This document shows positions 30,109 through 37,923 of a stretch of DNA of 64,000 nt, in pieces. Source of the stretch: Bacteroidetes bacterium HGW-Bacteroidetes-8. GTDB lineage: Bacteria; Bacteroidota; Bacteroidia; Bacteroidales; UBA932. The notes below the pieces were generated by a model. The model made no database searches. It saw only the letters and a program-made list of their open reading frames with translations, and was not told the origin of the DNA. How positions within the stretch are numbered: position 1 is the first letter of the stretch; each line of letters opens with the position of its first letter. The stretch is from contig PHCZ01000001.1 of the NCBI GenBank assembly GCA_002840895.1, positions 1-64,000 of the forward strand, read 5' to 3'. A program made the position numbers and the translations under genes.

Positions 30109-31317
30109 TCAGAGCGGAATATGAGTTGTTGAAACTACTCTATTTATGGCAGATGCAAGGATTTTAACCCCTTTTTCAATTTTCTCATTTTGTGCGTAGG
30201 AGAAGTTTATTCTCATTGTGTTCTTTCCCTCTCCGTTACAGAAAAAAATCTCTCCGGGTATAAAGGCTAAGTCCTCAATAAGTGTCAGCTTTAGAACATC
30301 TGTAGCGTTGTATCTGACCGGAAGAGTGACAAATAGAAAGAGCCCCCCCTCGGGAACCGTCCAGCTTACACACTTAGGCATATACCTCTTAAAACACTCC
30401 AGCATCAACTCTCTTTTTCCTCGGTAAAGCTCTATTGTCTTAACAAGATTGCTTTCAAAGAGCCCATCTCTCAGGTAGCGTGCTGCAATAGCCTGGTCAA
30501 AAACAGAAGCACACAGGTCTGTGCTCTGCTTTGCAACTACTATCCTGCTTAAAATTGAGGGGTTGGCAACAACCCATCCAAGCCTGAACCCGGGTGTGAG
30601 AGTCTTGGAAAATGTCCCTAAAAGTATGACCCGCTCTCTGTCCATAGATAAAAGTGTAGGCAAGTCATCACCTGAGTATCGCAACTCGCGATAAGGGCTA
30701 TCCTCAATTATTATCAAATCGTAAAGTTGGGCAACTCTAATAATGTTCTCTCTCTGGGCCAACGTAAGAGTTATTCCTGAGGGGTTCTGAAAATCTGGAA
30801 TGGAGTAGATGAATTTTGGTTTTCTATCCTCTTCTATGAGCTTAATAATAGTTGATTCCAGGCTGTTTTCGTCGGCAACTCCAACAGGAACACCGCCCCA
30901 AAACCAAAATGATTGGAGAGCACCAAAATAGCTTGGCAGGCTGCACACAACAGTATCCCCTCTGTTAATAAATATTTTGGAACATAGGTCTATTGCCTGC
31001 TGCGAGGATGTTGTTATTGCTATATCCTCTTTTGTTATATCAACTCCTTGTGAATAGTATCTCTTTGCAAGCTCCTCCCTAAGATTTGGATCCCCCTCGG
31101 TTGGACCGTATTGAAGAGAGATTGAGGGGCTCTCCCTAAGGAGTCTATCCACAATCCTTTTTAGGTCATCAACCGGAAATGTATCCGGATTCGGGTATCC
31201 GCCACCAAATGAGATGAGCTCCTCTATATTGAGCCCGGAAAGTATACTCCTTGCCGGAGAGGGTCTCATATGAGATGCATTTTGGGAGAGTAAAGAGTCT
31301 AGATTAATTTTGCTCAT
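30109..31317 (-). CDS. class I/II PLP-dependent aminotransferase, candidate succinyl-DAP aminotransferase
   Basis: Fold-type I aminotransferase of 402 residues, of the group related to 2-aminoadipate (LysN) and MocR-like aminotransferases but with no DNA-binding domain. The PLP Lys is in GTFSKTLTPGFRLGW and the conserved NP and Asp/Tyr sites are in IPDFQNPSG and IIIEDSPYRELR. The gene is the last of the six-gene lysine/DAP operon and overlaps dapD by 4 bases. The succinylase pathway needs an N-succinyl-DAP aminotransferase between DapD and DapE, and no other candidate is present, so I infer that role (DapC function). An unrelated aminotransferase activity cannot be excluded. Confidence 0.82.
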   Translation of the reverse strand: MSKINLDSLLSQNASHMRPSPARSILSGLNIEELISFGGGYPNPDTFPVDDLKRIVDRLLRESPSISLQYGPTEGDPNLREELAKRYYSQGVDITKEDIAITTSSQQAIDLCSKIFINRGDTVVCSLPSYFGALQSFWFWGGVPVGVADENSLESTIIKLIEEDRKPKFIYSIPDFQNPSGITLTLAQRENIIRVAQLYDLIIIEDSPYRELRYSGDDLPTLLSMDRERVILLGTFSKTLTPGFRLGWVVANPSILSRIVVAKQSTDLCASVFDQAIAARYLRDGLFESNLVKTIELYRGKRELMLECFKRYMPKCVSWTVPEGGLFLFVTLPVRYNATDVLKLTLIEDLAFIPGEIFFCNGEGKNTMRINFSYAQNEKIEKGVKILASAINRVVSTTHIPL

Positions 31318-32138
31318 CTTAAAAGATCTTCAAGTTCTATTGCACTCTCTGTTTTGTTGTCTCTATATTTTATAATTACAGGGCAGTATAGATGAATAGA
31401 GAGCTCTCTGCCATAACCCTTGCTTATGGGACGGCTGCCTGCAACTACTACAGCCCCTTGTGGTACAGTCAAGGGGTGGCTCTCACTCTTGCGGATAAAC
31501 TCCCCTGTGGTTGAGTCAAAGATGGGTGTAGATGAGTTTAGAATAACTCCGGTACCGATAACTGCTCTATCTTTAATTATAGTCCCTTCGTAAACTCCGC
31601 AGTTTCCACCAATAAAGACGTTATCTTCAATTATCACCGGCATTGCATTAACCGGTTCCAGAACTCCCCCTATCTGAGATGCGGCTGAGATATGAACACC
31701 CTTCCCTATCTGGGCACAAGAGCCCACTAGTGCGTGAGAGTCTATCATACAACCGCAATCTATATATGCTCCAACATTGATATAGGAGGGAGGCATAATA
31801 ACTGTTCCATCTGCTACATAGGCTCCGCTCCTAACAGAGGAGCCCCCCGGAACAAGTCTGATATCTCTTTTCAAACCCAAATTTTGAGCCGGGTATGAAT
31901 CTTTATCATAGAATGAGAAAGGTCTTGAGGGATATTCAGAGATCTCTCCATATTTAAACCCCCACAATATAACCTGCTTAACCCAGGAGTTTACCTGCCA
32001 GTTGCCATCTCTTCTCTCTGCTACCCTAAGCTCCCCACTCTCCAAAAGTTCTCTTACACGATAAAATAGGAGTAACGCCTTTTTGCTGTCGTTACTAAGT
32101 GATATCTGTGTGAACTCTGCTTCTAAATTTAACATCAT
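31314..32138 (-). CDS. dapD: tetrahydrodipicolinate N-succinyltransferase
   Basis: Third step after DapB in the succinylase branch: transfers succinyl from succinyl-CoA to tetrahydrodipicolinate. Left-handed beta-helix hexapeptide repeats run through the middle (IMPPSYINVGAYID, SHALVGSCAQIG, IIEDNVFIGGNCGVYEG), with the DapD motif PGGSSVRSGAYVADG (about 98-112) and the C-terminal LSIHLYCPVIIKY. Length 274 matches E. coli-type DapD. It overlaps dapA by one base and the aminotransferase gene by four. Confidence 0.93.
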   Translation of the reverse strand: MMLNLEAEFTQISLSNDSKKALLLFYRVRELLESGELRVAERRDGNWQVNSWVKQVILWGFKYGEISEYPSRPFSFYDKDSYPAQNLGLKRDIRLVPGGSSVRSGAYVADGTVIMPPSYINVGAYIDCGCMIDSHALVGSCAQIGKGVHISAASQIGGVLEPVNAMPVIIEDNVFIGGNCGVYEGTIIKDRAVIGTGVILNSSTPIFDSTTGEFIRKSESHPLTVPQGAVVVAGSRPISKGYGRELSIHLYCPVIIKYRDNKTESAIELEDLLR

Positions 32139-33019
32139 TACAGTAATTTAAGTTCTTTTAATATCTCACTCATAAGTTGGTCGGTTTTTGTAGAGGAACT
32201 AACAAGTGGCAACCTTAAAACGTTCTTTATCAGATTCATTTGGCTAAGAGCGGCTTTAGTAGGGATTGGGTTACTCTCAACAAAACAGGCTTTAAAAAGT
32301 GGCATTAGTTTATGGTGAATCTCTGATGCTCTCTGAGACTCTCTCTTATGGAGGCTCTGCGTTAATTCAACAACATATCCGGGAGCAATATTTGAAGCTA
32401 CACTTATAACACCCTTTGCTCCTGTGCTCATTAGCGAGAGGGTTTCATCGTCATTTCCCGAGAGTACCGAGAACCCTTGTGGAGAGTATTTAATTATCTC
32501 GCTAATCTGGGAATATACTCCTGACGCCTCTTTTACCGCTTTTATATTATTAAGTTCTGCAAGACGCAGTGTGGTCTCACTTGTCATATTTATGCCTGTT
32601 CTGCCGGGAACATTATACAGAATTATTGGAAGATCTGTAGATTCCGAAATTGCACGAAAGTGCTCATAGATTCCCTGCTGGGTGGGTTTGTTGTAATATG
32701 GAACCACAACCAGAAATGCATCTACACTTAGTTTGGAATAACTTTTTATCTTCTCAATTACCTTTTTAGTGTAGTTTGACCCGACACCGGCAACTACAGG
32801 TACTCTGCCTCCGTTGACCTCCAGGGTTATCTCAAGAATTTTATATTTTTCGTTCTCTTCCAGGCAAGGGGTCTCGCCGGTTGTTCCAAGTGGTACCAAG
32901 AAGTTGATACCTGCATCCAATTGTCTTTTTACCAGAGCTATAAAGGATGGGTAATCAACTTCATAAGTTGAGGTAAATGGCGTTATAAGTGCCGTACCAC
33001 ACCCGCTAATCTCTTTCAT
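32138..33019 (-). CDS. dapA: 4-hydroxy-tetrahydrodipicolinate synthase
   Basis: Condenses pyruvate and aspartate semialdehyde, committing carbon to lysine/DAP. TIM barrel with the GTALITPF start, the GTTGE phosphate-like loop (LGTTGETPCL), catalytic Tyr in VVPYYNKP, NVPGRTG loop and Schiff-base Lys in IKAVKEASG (about residue 163). Length 293 is typical. It overlaps dapB by 14 bases within the operon. Confidence 0.96.
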   Translation of the reverse strand: MKEISGCGTALITPFTSTYEVDYPSFIALVKRQLDAGINFLVPLGTTGETPCLEENEKYKILEITLEVNGGRVPVVAGVGSNYTKKVIEKIKSYSKLSVDAFLVVVPYYNKPTQQGIYEHFRAISESTDLPIILYNVPGRTGINMTSETTLRLAELNNIKAVKEASGVYSQISEIIKYSPQGFSVLSGNDDETLSLMSTGAKGVISVASNIAPGYVVELTQSLHKRESQRASEIHHKLMPLFKACFVESNPIPTKAALSQMNLIKNVLRLPLVSSSTKTDQLMSEILKELKLL

Positions 33020-33707
33020 AGTTTAATATTTTAGTAAATTTATTTTCAATGATATCGCGGAAATCAAATACCCCTTTGAGCTCACTGCTCCACTCTGCAG
33101 CGGTAACAGCACCAAGGGCAAACCCCCTTCTTGAAAAGGCCTCGTGTTCTATTGTAATTCTATCCTGAGCAGATTCAAATCCCAGACGGTGTATTCCGGG
33201 AATAAATCCGCTCCGGACAGACTCTATTGTCACATTGTGCCCACTCTCTTTTGTGACAATCTCTTTTAAGGATTTCGCAGTTCCGGATGGTGAATCCAGC
33301 TTGAACTTATGATGCATCTCAATAATATATGGATCATACTCACCCAGGTTTGAACAGAGTCTGGAGGCTATTTCGCATAACTTAAAGAGTATACCAACCC
33401 CCAAAGAGAAGTTGCTGGCATAAATCATTGTTGTTTGACACTCACGAAACGAGGCTATAACCTCATCTTTAGCGTCATTCCAGCCGGTTGTTCCAACAAC
33501 TGCTGCTTTAAAATTCTCTGCAATAAACCTGTAATTTTTTAGGAATGCTTCCGGTTCCGAAAAATCTATACATACGCTATTTGCGGTTAACCTTTTGTCA
33601 ATACTCAGAATATCTTCTGATTTTGCAATAATTGTATGAGTTGTATCCTTTAAAACGGATTCAATCTCCCTACCCATCTTCCCGTATCCCGATAAAACTA
33701 TCTCCAT
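33006..33707 (-). CDS. dapB: 4-hydroxy-tetrahydrodipicolinate reductase
   Basis: Reduces the DapA product with NAD(P)H. The N-terminal nucleotide loop is GYGKMGREIE; the family signature EMHHKFKLDSPSGTA contains the catalytic His pair and Lys. The shortened N-terminal domain (233 residues in all) is usual for Bacteroidota DapB. It shares one base with the lysC stop/start junction. Confidence 0.95.
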   Translation of the reverse strand: MEIVLSGYGKMGREIESVLKDTTHTIIAKSEDILSIDKRLTANSVCIDFSEPEAFLKNYRFIAENFKAAVVGTTGWNDAKDEVIASFRECQTTMIYASNFSLGVGILFKLCEIASRLCSNLGEYDPYIIEMHHKFKLDSPSGTAKSLKEIVTKESGHNVTIESVRSGFIPGIHRLGFESAQDRITIEHEAFSRRGFALGAVTAAEWSSELKGVFDFRDIIENKFTKILNYERD

Positions 33708-35062
33708 TATTCAAAAAATTCTTTGTGAAGAGCTGTTATAACTGAGTCCAGATCCTCTTTGTTTACGACAAAACTTACATTAATATCGGAGGCCCCCTGG
33801 CTTATCATAGTTATATTGTGCTCACAGATTGCTCCGAAAATTCTTTTAGCCAACCCCTTTGTCTCTTTGAGATTTTTACCCACAACAGAGACCTGCGACT
33901 TATTATAGTTGACAGTTACCTTTGCAAAACGAGATATCTCCTTTGTCACTCTATCCAGATTCAAGTCGGTGTCTACTGTTAATGATACACTAACCTCAGA
34001 TGTGCTTATCAGGTCTACAGATACACCATATTTACCGAAAACTTCAAAAAGCTTGGTAAGAAACCCGAATGTGTTTAGCATCTTCATAGAGAATATATTT
34101 ATGACAACGATATCCTCTTTAAAGGATATAGCCCTCACACCACAACTTTGAACCTCTTCGTCTTTTAAGATTAGTGTCCCACTTTTGTGAGGTTCTGTTG
34201 AGTTTAGCACCCTTACAGGGATGTTTTTTTCTATAGCAGGTTGTATGGTTGCCGGGTGAAGCACCTTTGCCCCAAAGAAAGAGAGCTCGGCTGCCTCACT
34301 GAACGACATTGTAGTTATACTTCTGGTGTTTTCCACTCTTCTTGGGTCTGTTGTATGAACTCCATCTACATCTGTCCAAATTTCAATCTCGTCTGCATTC
34401 ATTGCCATACCTATAAGCGCTGCAGTGTAGTCAGAACCTCCTCTCCCCAGGATAGTATTTAGACCATTTTTTGTTCCGGATATAAATCCTTGGGTTATAA
34501 CAACATCACTCTGTTCAAATGCCAGGTTAAGGGCTATTGGAGCTAGCTCCCTTATTGCGTTATAATCTGGTTCACCTTTTAGAAACTCATCGTCGGTTAT
34601 GATAAAGCATCTTGCATCTGCAATATCACACTTAACCCCGGCATTGTTTAAAGTGCGGTAAATGATATATGAAGATAGAAGCTCCCCGAAAGAGAGGATT
34701 TTTGCCATACTTTTATTTGAGAGCTCCTCAAGAATATTGACCACCCCTGCAATCTCCCTTAGCTTGACAAAGTACTCTTTGATCTCTGAGAGGGTATGTT
34801 CAAGGTAGGGTTGGTTCTCACTTAGTAGTTGTGAGGCCATTAGTATATGTCTCTCCTGTAGAGTCTCTGTAAGGGCCAACGCGCCATTGAGATCTCCTGT
34901 ATAGGATTGGTTCGCTATCTTCTGTAGTGTATCGGTCACTTTAGAGAGGGCAGAGACAACAACAACAGGGTGCAGATGTATTTTTTTTCTGACAATTTCG
35001 ACTAATCTGTTTACCGCTGCGGAGTCCTGTACAGAGGTCCCTCCGAATTTCATAACTATCAT
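33707..35062 (-). CDS. lysC: monofunctional aspartate kinase with ACT domains
   Basis: First enzyme of the aspartate pathway. The kinase start is MKFGGTSV, with GRGGSDYTA and the DVDGVHTTDPR motif of the amino-acid kinase fold. About 150 C-terminal residues form two ACT domains (IVVINIFSMKMLNTFGFLTKLFEVF and VSVVGKNLKETKGLAKRIF), the usual site of lysine or threonine feedback. No homoserine dehydrogenase domain is fused. Met1 or Met4 may be the start. It lies 1 base after the M20 peptidase gene, second in the operon. Confidence 0.95.
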   Translation of the reverse strand: MIVMKFGGTSVQDSAAVNRLVEIVRKKIHLHPVVVVSALSKVTDTLQKIANQSYTGDLNGALALTETLQERHILMASQLLSENQPYLEHTLSEIKEYFVKLREIAGVVNILEELSNKSMAKILSFGELLSSYIIYRTLNNAGVKCDIADARCFIITDDEFLKGEPDYNAIRELAPIALNLAFEQSDVVITQGFISGTKNGLNTILGRGGSDYTAALIGMAMNADEIEIWTDVDGVHTTDPRRVENTRSITTMSFSEAAELSFFGAKVLHPATIQPAIEKNIPVRVLNSTEPHKSGTLILKDEEVQSCGVRAISFKEDIVVINIFSMKMLNTFGFLTKLFEVFGKYGVSVDLISTSEVSVSLTVDTDLNLDRVTKEISRFAKVTVNYNKSQVSVVGKNLKETKGLAKRIFGAICEHNITMISQGASDINVSFVVNKEDLDSVITALHKEFFE

Positions 35063-35063
35063 T

Positions 35064-36059
35064 CTACTCTATCTCCTGAGTTAATGTTTTGAAGATGTTT
35101 TTCAAATCTACAACCGCTCTCTCAATATCTGAGAGATCGATAAACTCCTTATCTGTGTGGGCTACCTTTATGCTTCCGGGACCGTAGAGCAGGCATCTGC
35201 CAAGATTTGAAAGACAAGGTCCGTCGCTTGCAAAAGCTACAATATCGCTGTGATAACCATCAATGTAGTGAAATCTAAAAGGCTTGTCCTCTCGAATTTT
35301 CGTTATAGAGATCTTATCATCGGAGATACCTTTTAATCTGTTCTCTATTAGAAGGTGTGAAGAGAAGGTGGTTCTGAAATATATTCTGAATGTTACCAGG
35401 TTTGGAAGTACGTTGTGAGCATTGTTTGAAGAGAGCATCCCTATATTATATGTGGTTGTTCCGAGAAGATTGTCCACCGGGAATTTCACTTCGGAGAGCT
35501 TGTTTAGAAACACCCTCATCCTCTCTATTGCATCATCTCCATATTGAGGATATCCAGAGTGTGAGCTGATACCTTTGATGTTAACTTCATACAATTGAAT
35601 ACCCTTTCCCGCGCGGATAAGTTTATTCTCTGTAGGCTCTCCTACTATAACATACTGACAATCTTTTATAAGGCTGTTTGCAATCTTTGCACCTTTTGAT
35701 CCAATCTCCTCGCCGGCCACAAGCAGTAGCCCAAAATTTGTTTGACCCTCTGCCTGGAGCTCTTTGCAAGCGTTGTAGGCTGCAATAATCTGACCTTTTG
35801 CGTCACACGCACCTCTGCCGAATATTTTGCCGTTATCTGCCCAGGGCTCAATATAGGGAGGAACAGTGTCCAGGTGAGTACAGAATACAATTTTAGGAGT
35901 GCCCCATTTGAAGAAGAGATTTACACTTCCGTCTCCCACCTCCTGTATTTCAAGTGTAGCCCCGGGAGTCTTAAATGTTCGGGCAATGTAGTTTGCCAAC
36001 TCTACCTCTTTCCCCGAAGTAGAGTCAATTTTCATAATCTGTACAAGTTCTGTTGTCAT
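35064..36059 (-). CDS. M20 family deacylase, candidate succinyl-DAP desuccinylase (DapE role)
   Basis: Dinuclear zinc M20 peptidase/deacylase of 331 residues. Metal ligands and catalytic acids are complete: THLDTVPP, GRGACDAKG, AGEEIGS, VGEPTEN and the late HTDKEF. The sequence is closer to LysK/ArgE-like short M20 enzymes than to canonical E. coli DapE, but as first gene of an operon with lysC-dapB-dapA-dapD it is the obvious candidate for removing succinate from N-succinyl-LL-DAP. It follows a leader with promoter, short ORF and terminator (36089-36262), so its transcription is probably attenuated. Confidence 0.85.
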   Translation of the reverse strand: MTTELVQIMKIDSTSGKEVELANYIARTFKTPGATLEIQEVGDGSVNLFFKWGTPKIVFCTHLDTVPPYIEPWADNGKIFGRGACDAKGQIIAAYNACKELQAEGQTNFGLLLVAGEEIGSKGAKIANSLIKDCQYVIVGEPTENKLIRAGKGIQLYEVNIKGISSHSGYPQYGDDAIERMRVFLNKLSEVKFPVDNLLGTTTYNIGMLSSNNAHNVLPNLVTFRIYFRTTFSSHLLIENRLKGISDDKISITKIREDKPFRFHYIDGYHSDIVAFASDGPCLSNLGRCLLYGPGSIKVAHTDKEFIDLSDIERAVVDLKNIFKTLTQEIE

Positions 36060-36088
36060 AATTTTATTTAAAGTCTGGTTATATTAAC

Positions 36089-36118
36089 AAAAAAAAAGCA
36101 CGAATCGGAGATTCGTGC
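36089..36118 (-). terminator. terminator hairpin in the leader of the lysine/DAP operon
   Basis: Perfect 9-bp stem (36098-36106 with 36110-36118, GCACGAATC and its complement) and 3-base loop, followed on the minus strand by nine T. It lies only 29 bases before the dapE-like ATG and downstream of a consensus promoter, so it sits in the operon leader rather than simply ending the previous gene. Confidence 0.88.
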
Positions 36119-36129
36119 CTATAATTAAT

Positions 36130-36187
36130 ACACAAAATCCCTCATCTCAGATGTGGTTTTTTACTAGCTTGTTTTATAGATTTTGTG
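36130..36187 (-). promoter_or_regulatory. competing leader stems: putative amino-acid attenuator
   Basis: On the minus-strand transcript, segment 1 (from 36187-36179, CACAAAATC) pairs perfectly with segment 2 (from 36139-36131, GATTTTGTG). Segment 2 can instead pair with the first arm of the terminator (segment 3, from 36118-36110): GAUUU, one bulged U, then GUGU against GCACGAAUC, nine pairs including two G-U. Segments 3 and 4 form the terminator. So 1:2, 2:3 and 3:4 are mutually exclusive, as in classical trp/his attenuators. Segment 1 lies inside the short leader ORF and segment 2 begins two bases after its stop codon. Confidence 0.65.
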
Positions 36188-36204
36188 CAGATTGTTCGGT
36201 TCAT
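36142..36204 (-). CDS. 20-residue Lys-rich leader peptide of the lysine/DAP operon
   Basis: Short ORF of 20 codons beginning ATG at 36204 and ending TGA at 36142-36144, too short for usual gene callers. It has four Lys codons, all AAA, at positions 8, 11, 15 and 16, the last two in tandem. It starts about 20 bases after the predicted transcription start. A ribosome stalled at Lys codons would mask leader segment 1 and allow the 2:3 antiterminator; one reaching the stop would cover segment 2 and let the terminator form. This fits lysine-sensing attenuation. Translation is unproven and there is no strong ribosome site, as is normal in this phylum. Confidence 0.6.
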   Translation of the reverse strand: MNRTICTKSIKQASKKPHLR

Positions 36205-36231
36205 TGTTCAATATTTTGGCTAAACTGTGTG

Positions 36232-36262
36232 CAAATGTAGCAGGAATATCTTTACCTCCAAA
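36232..36262 (-). promoter_or_regulatory. consensus promoter of the lysine/DAP operon
   Basis: Minus strand: TTTG, 19 bases, TACATTTG, a full match to the Bacteroidota consensus. It begins only 15 bases past the stop codon of the upstream M28 peptidase gene. Predicted start of transcription is near 36225, giving a leader of about 165 bases to the dapE-like ATG. Confidence 0.78.
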
Positions 36263-36276
36263 AAAAAATGAAATAA

Positions 36277-37923
36277 TTATTGCCGTTTTCTTCTCTTTGT
36301 CTCCGTTTTTGCTGCAGGCTGCTCCTCTTTGTAAAGATCCTCTCTTGAGAGTAACTTGTCCATATTGGCGAGATTATAATATACTATTGCCATAACTACA
36401 GATGTGTGGTCCATATATTCCGGGATACTCATATTGTAAGTGTCTCTTTCTGTATGCCAAATCTCCTGATAATTGAAGTCATAACCCTTTGGGTCGCTTG
36501 TGCCGAAACTGATTGCAGGGACTCCATTAACGGCAAAGTATGCGTGGTCGGAACCTCCTGCAGTGGTTGGCCTTGGCCGTGCCTCTGTGTTTCTCCTGTT
36601 TAGAGTGAATGGTAATTCGGGGTTAATACGGTTAAGATCTTCTGTCGCCTTTTTAAAATCTTCGTACATTGCATCAGGAACTGTTATTGAGTTGGCAACA
36701 GTAGGACCACCATCTCTGTTAAAGTAGTTTGAGATTTTGTCCAGATTTGACAAATTGCTCTCCACCCAGTGTTTGGAGCCTAAAAGACCAAACTCCTCTC
36801 CTGCCCAAAGACAGAATGCTATAGATCTTCTCGGCTTTCCTCCGGCTGCCATAATCAAACGAGCAGCCTCCAGATTAGGTGCTACTCCGGTACCGCAATC
36901 CACACCGCCGGTTGCAACATCAAATGCATCCAGATGGCCTCCGGACATAATATACTCATCCGGAAATTCAGTACCTCGTATTATGCCTATAACATTATGG
37001 TATCTTACAGCTCCCGGTTTAAAGTGGTTGCGGATATCGAACTCAAGCAAAAAGTACTCTCTCTCTTTAACTTTTTGAGCAATAATGCGATACTGATGCT
37101 CATTTAGTTTTATGTCGGGGCAGGTAGGGAGGTTGTCAAAATCCATATATTTTAAATTCTTTCTGTCGTAGAGTGCTCTTATTGGCACTGTCGAGGATTG
37201 AATTATTCCCAGAATTCCGGCATCTCTCATCTCTTTGTAAAAGAGTGCAGGGGAGTCACGGTACTCTTTAAGGGGCACTTTGGGCTTATCCGGGTTGGCT
37301 CTGTTAACTCTGGTAACTGAGTCGTTGTATCTTCCAATCTTGTTGTTTTCACTAATGATAATTGAACGGAGAGTATCTGCATACTCGGAGAAGTCGATAG
37401 GAAATCCGTCGCTCTCTCCGGATATAAGCACCCACGCACCTTTGAGCTTTCCCTTCATACGTTCAAAATCTGCTCTGGTTTTAGGCTCCATAACAACGTG
37501 TCCTCTTTGAACACCTTTTGTGCCTGAGGTGTATGACGGGGTTGCAAAATGGAGAGTCATCCCATCTGTGGAGAGCATCTTTCCAAACCAGGGGCCTCTG
37601 TTGAAGCCAACCGGAACCTCCCCCACTTCAATAACCTGTACCTCAAGCCCCCATTTCTGAAAAAGTCCTGCAGCCCAGTATGTTGCATTTTCATAAGCGT
37701 CAGATCCAATGAGCCTTCCTCCGATCCTGTTTGTAAGGATATCCAGATGGTGCATAGTTCGGTTATCTGTGGTACCGATCTCAATTATTTTATTGATAAC
37801 ATTTTTGGAGTTATCTCCTGTTAGCAGTGGGTTCTGAGTGATTATCCTGTTTTGTGAAAGGATAGCGGAGGAGTTTATGAGCATAATGCTCAAAAGAGAG
37901 ATAAACAGAGAGATTCGTTTCAT
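36277..37923 (-). CDS. M28 family metallopeptidase, exported
   Basis: Secreted zinc aminopeptidase/carboxypeptidase-like enzyme of 548 residues with a signal peptide (MKRISLFISLLSIML...ILSQ). The cocatalytic zinc ligands are in GGHLDAFD, GVDCGTGVAPNLEAARL, AGEEFGLLGS, YFNRDGG and GGSDHAYF. Residues about 110-290 form an inserted PA-like domain. The C terminus is a basic tail (KTETKRRKRQ). Likely role is peptide scavenging. No own terminator is seen before the promoter of the next operon, so read-through transcripts would meet the terminator at 36089-36118. Confidence 0.9.
   Translation of the reverse strand: MKRISLFISLLSIMLINSSAILSQNRIITQNPLLTGDNSKNVINKIIEIGTTDNRTMHHLDILTNRIGGRLIGSDAYENATYWAAGLFQKWGLEVQVIEVGEVPVGFNRGPWFGKMLSTDGMTLHFATPSYTSGTKGVQRGHVVMEPKTRADFERMKGKLKGAWVLISGESDGFPIDFSEYADTLRSIIISENNKIGRYNDSVTRVNRANPDKPKVPLKEYRDSPALFYKEMRDAGILGIIQSSTVPIRALYDRKNLKYMDFDNLPTCPDIKLNEHQYRIIAQKVKEREYFLLEFDIRNHFKPGAVRYHNVIGIIRGTEFPDEYIMSGGHLDAFDVATGGVDCGTGVAPNLEAARLIMAAGGKPRRSIAFCLWAGEEFGLLGSKHWVESNLSNLDKISNYFNRDGGPTVANSITVPDAMYEDFKKATEDLNRINPELPFTLNRRNTEARPRPTTAGGSDHAYFAVNGVPAISFGTSDPKGYDFNYQEIWHTERDTYNMSIPEYMDHTSVVMAIVYYNLANMDKLLSREDLYKEEQPAAKTETKRRKRQ

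Follow-up and report, generated by a model that had tools for sequence, protein, structure and literature searches.

A probable lysine leader-peptide attenuator ahead of the diaminopimelate/lysine operon in one lineage of Bacteroidales

The analyzed stretch of DNA, the 64,000 nucleotides hereafter called the window (genome G000), carries on its minus strand, before a lysine operon, what is very probably a ribosome-mediated transcription attenuator sensing charged tRNA-Lys (probability of about 0.86). This reading is favored because a Lys-rich open reading frame (ORF) followed by a terminator recurs in six genomes, because Lys is enriched in the encoded peptides, and because a folding model gives dependence on ribosome stalling in five of the six leaders. 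Amino-acid leader-peptide attenuators comprise those of trp, his, thr, leu, ilv and phe, and lysine genes are usually under riboswitch or T-box control; we know of no leader-peptide attenuator for lysine. No report of one was found in the open-access literature, a scope that leaves out most subscription papers and the comparative attenuator survey of Lopatovskaya et al., 2010 (cited in PMC4833913), and the novelty is provisional. With this proviso, it is likely the first lysine-specific leader-peptide attenuator, in which tRNA-Lys charging would control the diaminopimelate/lysine operon of a single lineage of Bacteroidales; two genera would have retained it while most of its sequence changed, and close relatives seem to have lost it again. 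Its known distribution is narrow.

The six-gene cluster behind the leader is a lysine/diaminopimelate operon, with the gene order dapE-like, lysC, dapB, dapA, dapD and aminotransferase:

35064..36059, minus strand: dapE-like M20 peptidase, first gene of the operon (PF01546, PF07687)
33707..35062, minus strand: lysC, lysine-sensitive aspartokinase 3 type (NF006570, 473.6 bits vs. cut-off 455)
33006..33707, minus strand: dapB (TIGR00036, 135.4 vs. cut-off 122)
32138..33019, minus strand: dapA (TIGR00674, 337.2 vs. cut-off 206.15)
31314..32138, minus strand: dapD (NF008808, 301.9 vs. cut-off 204)
30109..31317, minus strand: class I/II aminotransferase (PF00155)

Among the 25 NCBIfam models shown, no curated cut-off was reached by the dapE-like protein, and the name “dapE” therefore rests on family and context; the aminotransferase likewise passed none of these cut-offs, and perhaps performs the DapC step, judging by its context.

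The leader itself is composed of the following elements:

36232..36262, minus strand: sigma-ABfr-type promoter, read from the sequence (-33 element TTTG at 36262-36259, spacer of 19 nt, -7 element TACATTTG at 36239-36232)
36142..36204, minus strand: leader peptide ORF of 20 codons plus TGA, MNRTICTKSIKQASKKPHLR, read from the sequence and matched by Lys-rich ATG ORFs in relatives
36179..36187, minus strand: segment 1, CACAAAATC, inside the leader ORF (codons 6-9)
36131..36141, minus strand: segment 2, GGGATTTTGTG, partner of segment 1 (protector) or of segment 3 (antiterminator)
36108..36120, minus strand: segment 3, forming the 5' arm of the terminator and part of its loop
36089..36120, minus strand: intrinsic terminator 3:4 with a T9 run (11 pairs by terminator scan; fold of -13.8 kcal/mol)

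By direct reading of the minus strand, the ORF runs from an ATG at 36204-36202 to a TGA at 36144-36142, and its peptide holds four Lys, two Thr and two Ile among 20 residues, the Lys codons (8, 11, 15, and 16) being all AAA. Both this ORF with its AAA codons (36204-36142) and the promoter, TTTG-N19 plus the -7 element (36262-36232), were re-read as the original prediction had described them; the sigma-ABfr consensus used for comparison is that given in PMC7366714. The perfect 9-bp stem 1:2 was also found again, between segment 1 (36187-36179) and the part GATTTTGTG of segment 2 (36139-36131), with segment 1 in the ORF and the pairing part of segment 2 beginning two bases past the leader stop. 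For the other two stems, presence was confirmed and the pair count revised: the 2:3 stem, earlier given nine pairs, has ten with one bulged T when counted by eye (36141-36131 with 36117-36108, made of GGGATT/AATCTC plus TGTG/CACG), and the terminator, earlier described with a 9-bp stem, has the 11 pairs of the scan. The terminator hairpin spans 36120-36096 and its T9 run 36097-36089, 29 nt from the dapE-like gene, whose ATG is at 36059. Compared with shuffles, the complementarity in G000 has p = 0.008 for 2:3 and p = 0.030 for 1:2.

These elements suggest a switch governed by the position of the ribosome. Transcription would begin shortly downstream of 36232, and the leader ORF would be translated by a ribosome. 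When lysine is plentiful, the ribosome at the stop codon would cover segment 2, the 3:4 hairpin would form and transcription would end before dapE; when lysine is scarce, the ribosome would stall at a Lys codon, leaving segment 2 free for the 2:3 pairing, so that no terminator would form and the operon would be transcribed. If the leader is not translated, 1:2 would form and the terminator would win, an outcome predicted for G000 and its near-duplicate G111 only.

An order-level search with the dapE-like protein matched one of 295 genomes at E <= 1e-40, G000 alone, and the comparison was therefore confined to one family. The dapE-like gene is present in 111 of the 398 genomes of this family at E <= 1e-50, and in 6 of the 25 genomes of the window's genus at E <= 1e-40; the upstream regions of 34 of the 111 were compared (33 loci together with G009, L017/L103). 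A Lys-rich ATG ORF with a terminator stands ahead of the orthologous operon in six of these 34 genomes: four of six in the window's genus and two of two in another genus. The leader peptides are MNRTICTKSIKQASKKPHLR (G000), MNSTYCTKSIKPAGKKPHLR (G111), MNTISVNNNQFKNSSKKP (G064), and MNKSIKKYLFSSKKPKL (G030) in the window's genus, and MALKSKHNPKQNKRKNCLPWNFIA (G029) and MMNSMAMMSKKSYKRGKQVSNLLRDSLV (G009) in the second. Those of the five relatives contain 3 to 6 Lys, and KKP lies close to the C-terminus in the four leaders of the window's genus. The dapE-like proteins of these relatives share with that of the window 94% (G111), 60% (G064), 52% (G030), 48% (G029), and 49% (G009) identity over the matched stretch, and the leader sequence has largely changed among them while the Lys-rich ORF and the terminator recur. 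Conservation of the leader before orthologous operons had been proposed as the way of checking the prediction, and its recurrence in five relatives does not refute it.

The leader is incomplete or absent in two close relatives, both of which were left out of the structure tests. In G160 (L035), the terminator and the last part of the ORF are present, but the -7 element and the ATG of the leader are missing; in G161 (L034), the upstream gene is followed straight away by dapE, and a leader is absent. Both assemblies are fragmented (about 370 contigs each), and the pattern suggests either that attenuation was lost recently or that the assemblies are faulty here. Three other genera, with 26 operons compared, yielded no Lys-rich ORF with a terminator. 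Several of these leaderless genomes (including L006, L008, L117, L120, and L129) have small upstream Lys-containing ORFs with no terminator, which were excluded from the leader count; in L016, a terminator-like hit occurs without any Lys-rich ORF.

In wider scans, loci were taken for the 30 strongest hits of NF006570 (lysC) across the class, where this model matched 280 of 295 genomes at E <= 1e-60, and for the 30 strongest lysA hits (122 of 149 genomes matched), with flanks of 1.5 kb, so that operons beginning further upstream fall outside the scan. Besides the six dapE leaders, the Lys-specific scan of all the collected loci returned L174 alone, where a Lys-containing ORF precedes a gene that, by eye, is not a lysine gene. 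Near lysA, the best Lys ORF was taken for every one of 11 terminators; a separate any-residue scan kept the richest ORF per terminator, and is not a clean Lys scan. Among 20 regions around dapB, several of which stop at contig ends, Lys leaders were flagged in L103 and L104 only (the two g10 genomes). A second dapB of G000 (C5; L112) was set aside, as its neighbors resemble, by eye, the contig of another organism; this locus (G000:C5:1-12000), with parA/parB/dapB/lepB-like and methylmalonyl-CoA mutase-like genes, looks like a flavobacterial contaminant, as judged by eye.

Lys is common in AT-rich DNA. In 2000 dinucleotide shuffles of each leader, those were counted that had, no more than 60 nt from the terminator, an ORF matching or exceeding the leader's Lys content. 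Such an ORF arose in 4.8% of the shuffles for G000, 1.75% for G111, 3.15% for G064, 0.05% for G030, 2.95% for G009 and in 0 of 2000 for G029; taken alone, the Lys-rich ORF of G000 is marginal against chance. When five leaders were pooled, dropping the near-duplicate G111, Lys accounted for 22 of 102 residues vs. 9.9 expected (P = 2.9e-4), and was the top residue without preselection; Ser came second (14 vs. 6.4 expected, P = 0.0045). At 69 distinct terminator-before-ORF sites in the collected loci, a Lys-rich ATG ORF precedes 6 of 8 motif-marked dapE entries vs. 1 of 61 others, a comparison whose thresholds were chosen after the leaders had been seen; of the two dapE entries without a Lys ORF, one is the locus of G160 and the other a second hairpin in L004.

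The effect of ribosome position was modeled by folding the RNA to the end of segment 3 with the ribosome footprint masked, the same footprint being used for the stalled and stop states, and reading out the probability that upstream RNA holds the 5' arm of the terminator. For G000, this antiterminator probability is 0.67 as the mean of the four Lys codons, vs. 0.30 both at the stop and in the absence of a ribosome; codon by codon it is 0.83 (8), 0.83 (11), 0.73 (15) and 0.30 (16), the last Lys codon being thus one that would not antiterminate in the model. For G111, the values are 0.84 (Lys stall), 0.16 (stop) and 0.35 (no ribosome). The Lys-minus-stop difference was equaled by 3 of 150 shuffled spacers for G000, 0 for G111, 3 for G030, 3 for G029 and 6 for G009; in G064 the model gives no discrimination between stall and stop, 78 of 150 shuffles being as good. 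With a footprint 3 nt longer, the counts are 1 (G000), 0 (G111), 6 (G030), 4 (G029), 5 (G009) and 46 (G064) of 150. An antiterminator dependent on ribosome position is therefore predicted in five of the six leaders, beyond most shuffles, and of the competing stems expected in relatives, the ribosome-dependent 2:3 pairing exceeds most shuffles in four of five, G064 being the one that fails.

The energy of the 2:3 duplex, taken alone, exceeds that of shuffles in G000 (the p of 0.008 given above), G111 (p = 0.001) and G030 (p = 0.019), and is non-significant in G064 (p = 0.071), G029 (p = 0.201) and G009 (p = 0.223). The end of the ORF itself contains segment 2 in G029 and G009; the geometry differs and the predicted outcome is the same. 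Termination of untranslated RNA through the 1:2 protector is supported by the model in G000 and G111 (equaled by 0 of 150 shuffles) and unsupported by it in G064, G030, G029 and G009, although the 1:2 pairing does fold in G064. The three-state logic of 1:2, 2:3 and 3:4 that had been put forward is, in full, clear in G000 and G111 and not clear in the other four. A protector stem is not found in all known attenuators.

Stalling at most sense codons, and not at those for Lys alone, would antiterminate in the model, and the specificity for lysine consequently rests on codon content. On this account, the short ORF might operate through general translation status or reinitiation and not through lysine, a reading with which the enrichment of Ser is also in keeping. 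However, no residue is as enriched as Lys, the operon under control makes lysine, and the leaders found ahead of thrA in the same genus (described below) are rich in Thr instead; we consider this alternative very unlikely.

The gene upstream raises another question. In the window it encodes an M28 peptidase (36277-37923) in the same orientation, with 14 nt between its end and the -33 element, and the hairpin could be taken for its 3' terminator, with the short ORF as a by-product of AT-rich sequence; the position of dapE directly behind that gene in G161 would agree with this. Nonetheless, a consensus promoter sits between the M28 stop and the terminator, and both the Lys enrichment and the stall dependence in five of six leaders stand above most shuffles. 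The upstream neighbor is co-oriented in G000, G111 and G030 and divergent in G064 (where, by eye, it is asd), G029 and G009, and the terminator and Lys ORF are present in the latter three all the same. Since the hairpin there lies between divergent genes, it could act only on RNA started between them and would not be the terminator of the upstream gene. This explanation is very unlikely.

As for the promoters presumed by the attenuator reading, TTTG-19-TAnnTTTG precedes the leader in G000, G111 and G029, and G030 has TTTG-18-TAATTTCG, with one change. G009 has a -7 element and a weak, unclear -33. In G064 (L003, 1303-1318), 5 nt separate the -7 element from the ATG of the leader, and T-runs alone occupy -33; translation of the peptide may therefore start on a message that is leaderless or almost so.

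Lysine riboswitches (L-box) are a usual RNA control of lysine genes, often acting via a terminator, and the competing stems described here also resemble a riboswitch expression platform. A riboswitch binding lysine or another metabolite, governing the terminator with no part for translation, is nevertheless extremely unlikely. No Rfam family reached its gathering score in the window or in eight related loci, and the lysine riboswitch is absent among the 15 weak hits obtained for 36030-36290 when E was allowed to reach 10. The whole leader measures about 140 nt, of which the ORF takes up nearly half, and when five rows of the same genus were aligned (that of G160 covering the 3' part only), the invariant columns fell mostly in the terminator region. 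Thr_leader (RF00506) scored 18.6 bits on the minus strand vs. a gathering score of 55 (E 0.27), and Bacteroid-trp (RF01692) was unmatched in the window and in G000, with stricter filters for the latter. A lysine riboswitch senses lysine directly, whereas the proposed leader, for which no match to the lysine riboswitch model was obtained, would sense the charging of tRNA-Lys.

Kindred arrangements occur in the same genus and phylum. A Thr-rich ORF with a terminator stands before thrA in 4 of the 22 usable aspartokinase loci of the window's genus (L040, L041, L058, and L059), with peptides such as MAIQHTTSIIMGTTSMTTITTTTLYD and MTMHTSTIITSTTTALYD and a long downstream aspartokinase ORF of about 816-838 aa, of the thrA type. 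G064 and G030 have both Thr and Lys leaders; the thrA of G000 itself (L061) has no Thr leader. The folding model, run without shuffle control, gives a difference between Thr stall and stop in all four, and L040, L058 and L059 match no Rfam family at gathering score. These leaders share with the Lys leader the genus, the layout and the modeled stall logic, and differ from it in their Thr-rich peptides and terminator sequence. Upstream of another aspartokinase gene (L167), an ORF rich in Glu, Thr and Ile, MTEVTIEAETEVEIAMGIEIEATETMTDTKKYSIL, with a putative start, abuts a strong terminator and is possibly a Thr/Ile leader.

Bacteroid-trp (RF01692) is listed as cis-regulatory in Bacteroidetes (PMC2864571, Table 1). 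Two of its matches (L133 and L134) contain, before a terminator, WWW ORFs with putative start codons, MVNRFWWWHLQLLEM and MNTYWWWRLRCLHGE, which would fit Trp leader-peptide attenuation for this family; it belongs to the same phylum as the Lys leader, and differs in amino acid, sequence and operon. Leader-peptide attenuation ahead of amino-acid operons has been described in Flavobacterium psychrophilum, in an article whose main text does not contain the word “lysine” (PMC9723704), and the map of B. thetaiotaomicron includes sORFs recalling leader peptides (PMC7366714).

The window's leader shares with classical attenuators (for the mechanism of his, see PMC4046918) an end-product-rich leader ORF, a stop near segment 2, competing 2:3 and 3:4 pairings and a terminator before a biosynthetic operon, together with a 1:2 protector predicted here in two species. 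Unlike them, it has Lys as the residue, no evident Shine-Dalgarno and a sigma-ABfr-type promoter. The application of trp/his-type geometry to lysine, the central proposal of the original prediction, is supported by the recurrence of the Lys-rich ORF and terminator in five relatives and by the ribosome-dependent 2:3 pairing predicted in four of them.

If this reading is true, even an amino acid with common codons can be sensed by a leader peptide, and this would hint at ribosome-mediated attenuation being a regular form of control in Bacteroidota, a phylum described as lacking classical Shine-Dalgarno sites (PMC7366714). The lysine pathway would then be under dual control, by feedback on LysC, lysine-sensitive according to its family match, and by the charging of tRNA-Lys acting on transcription.
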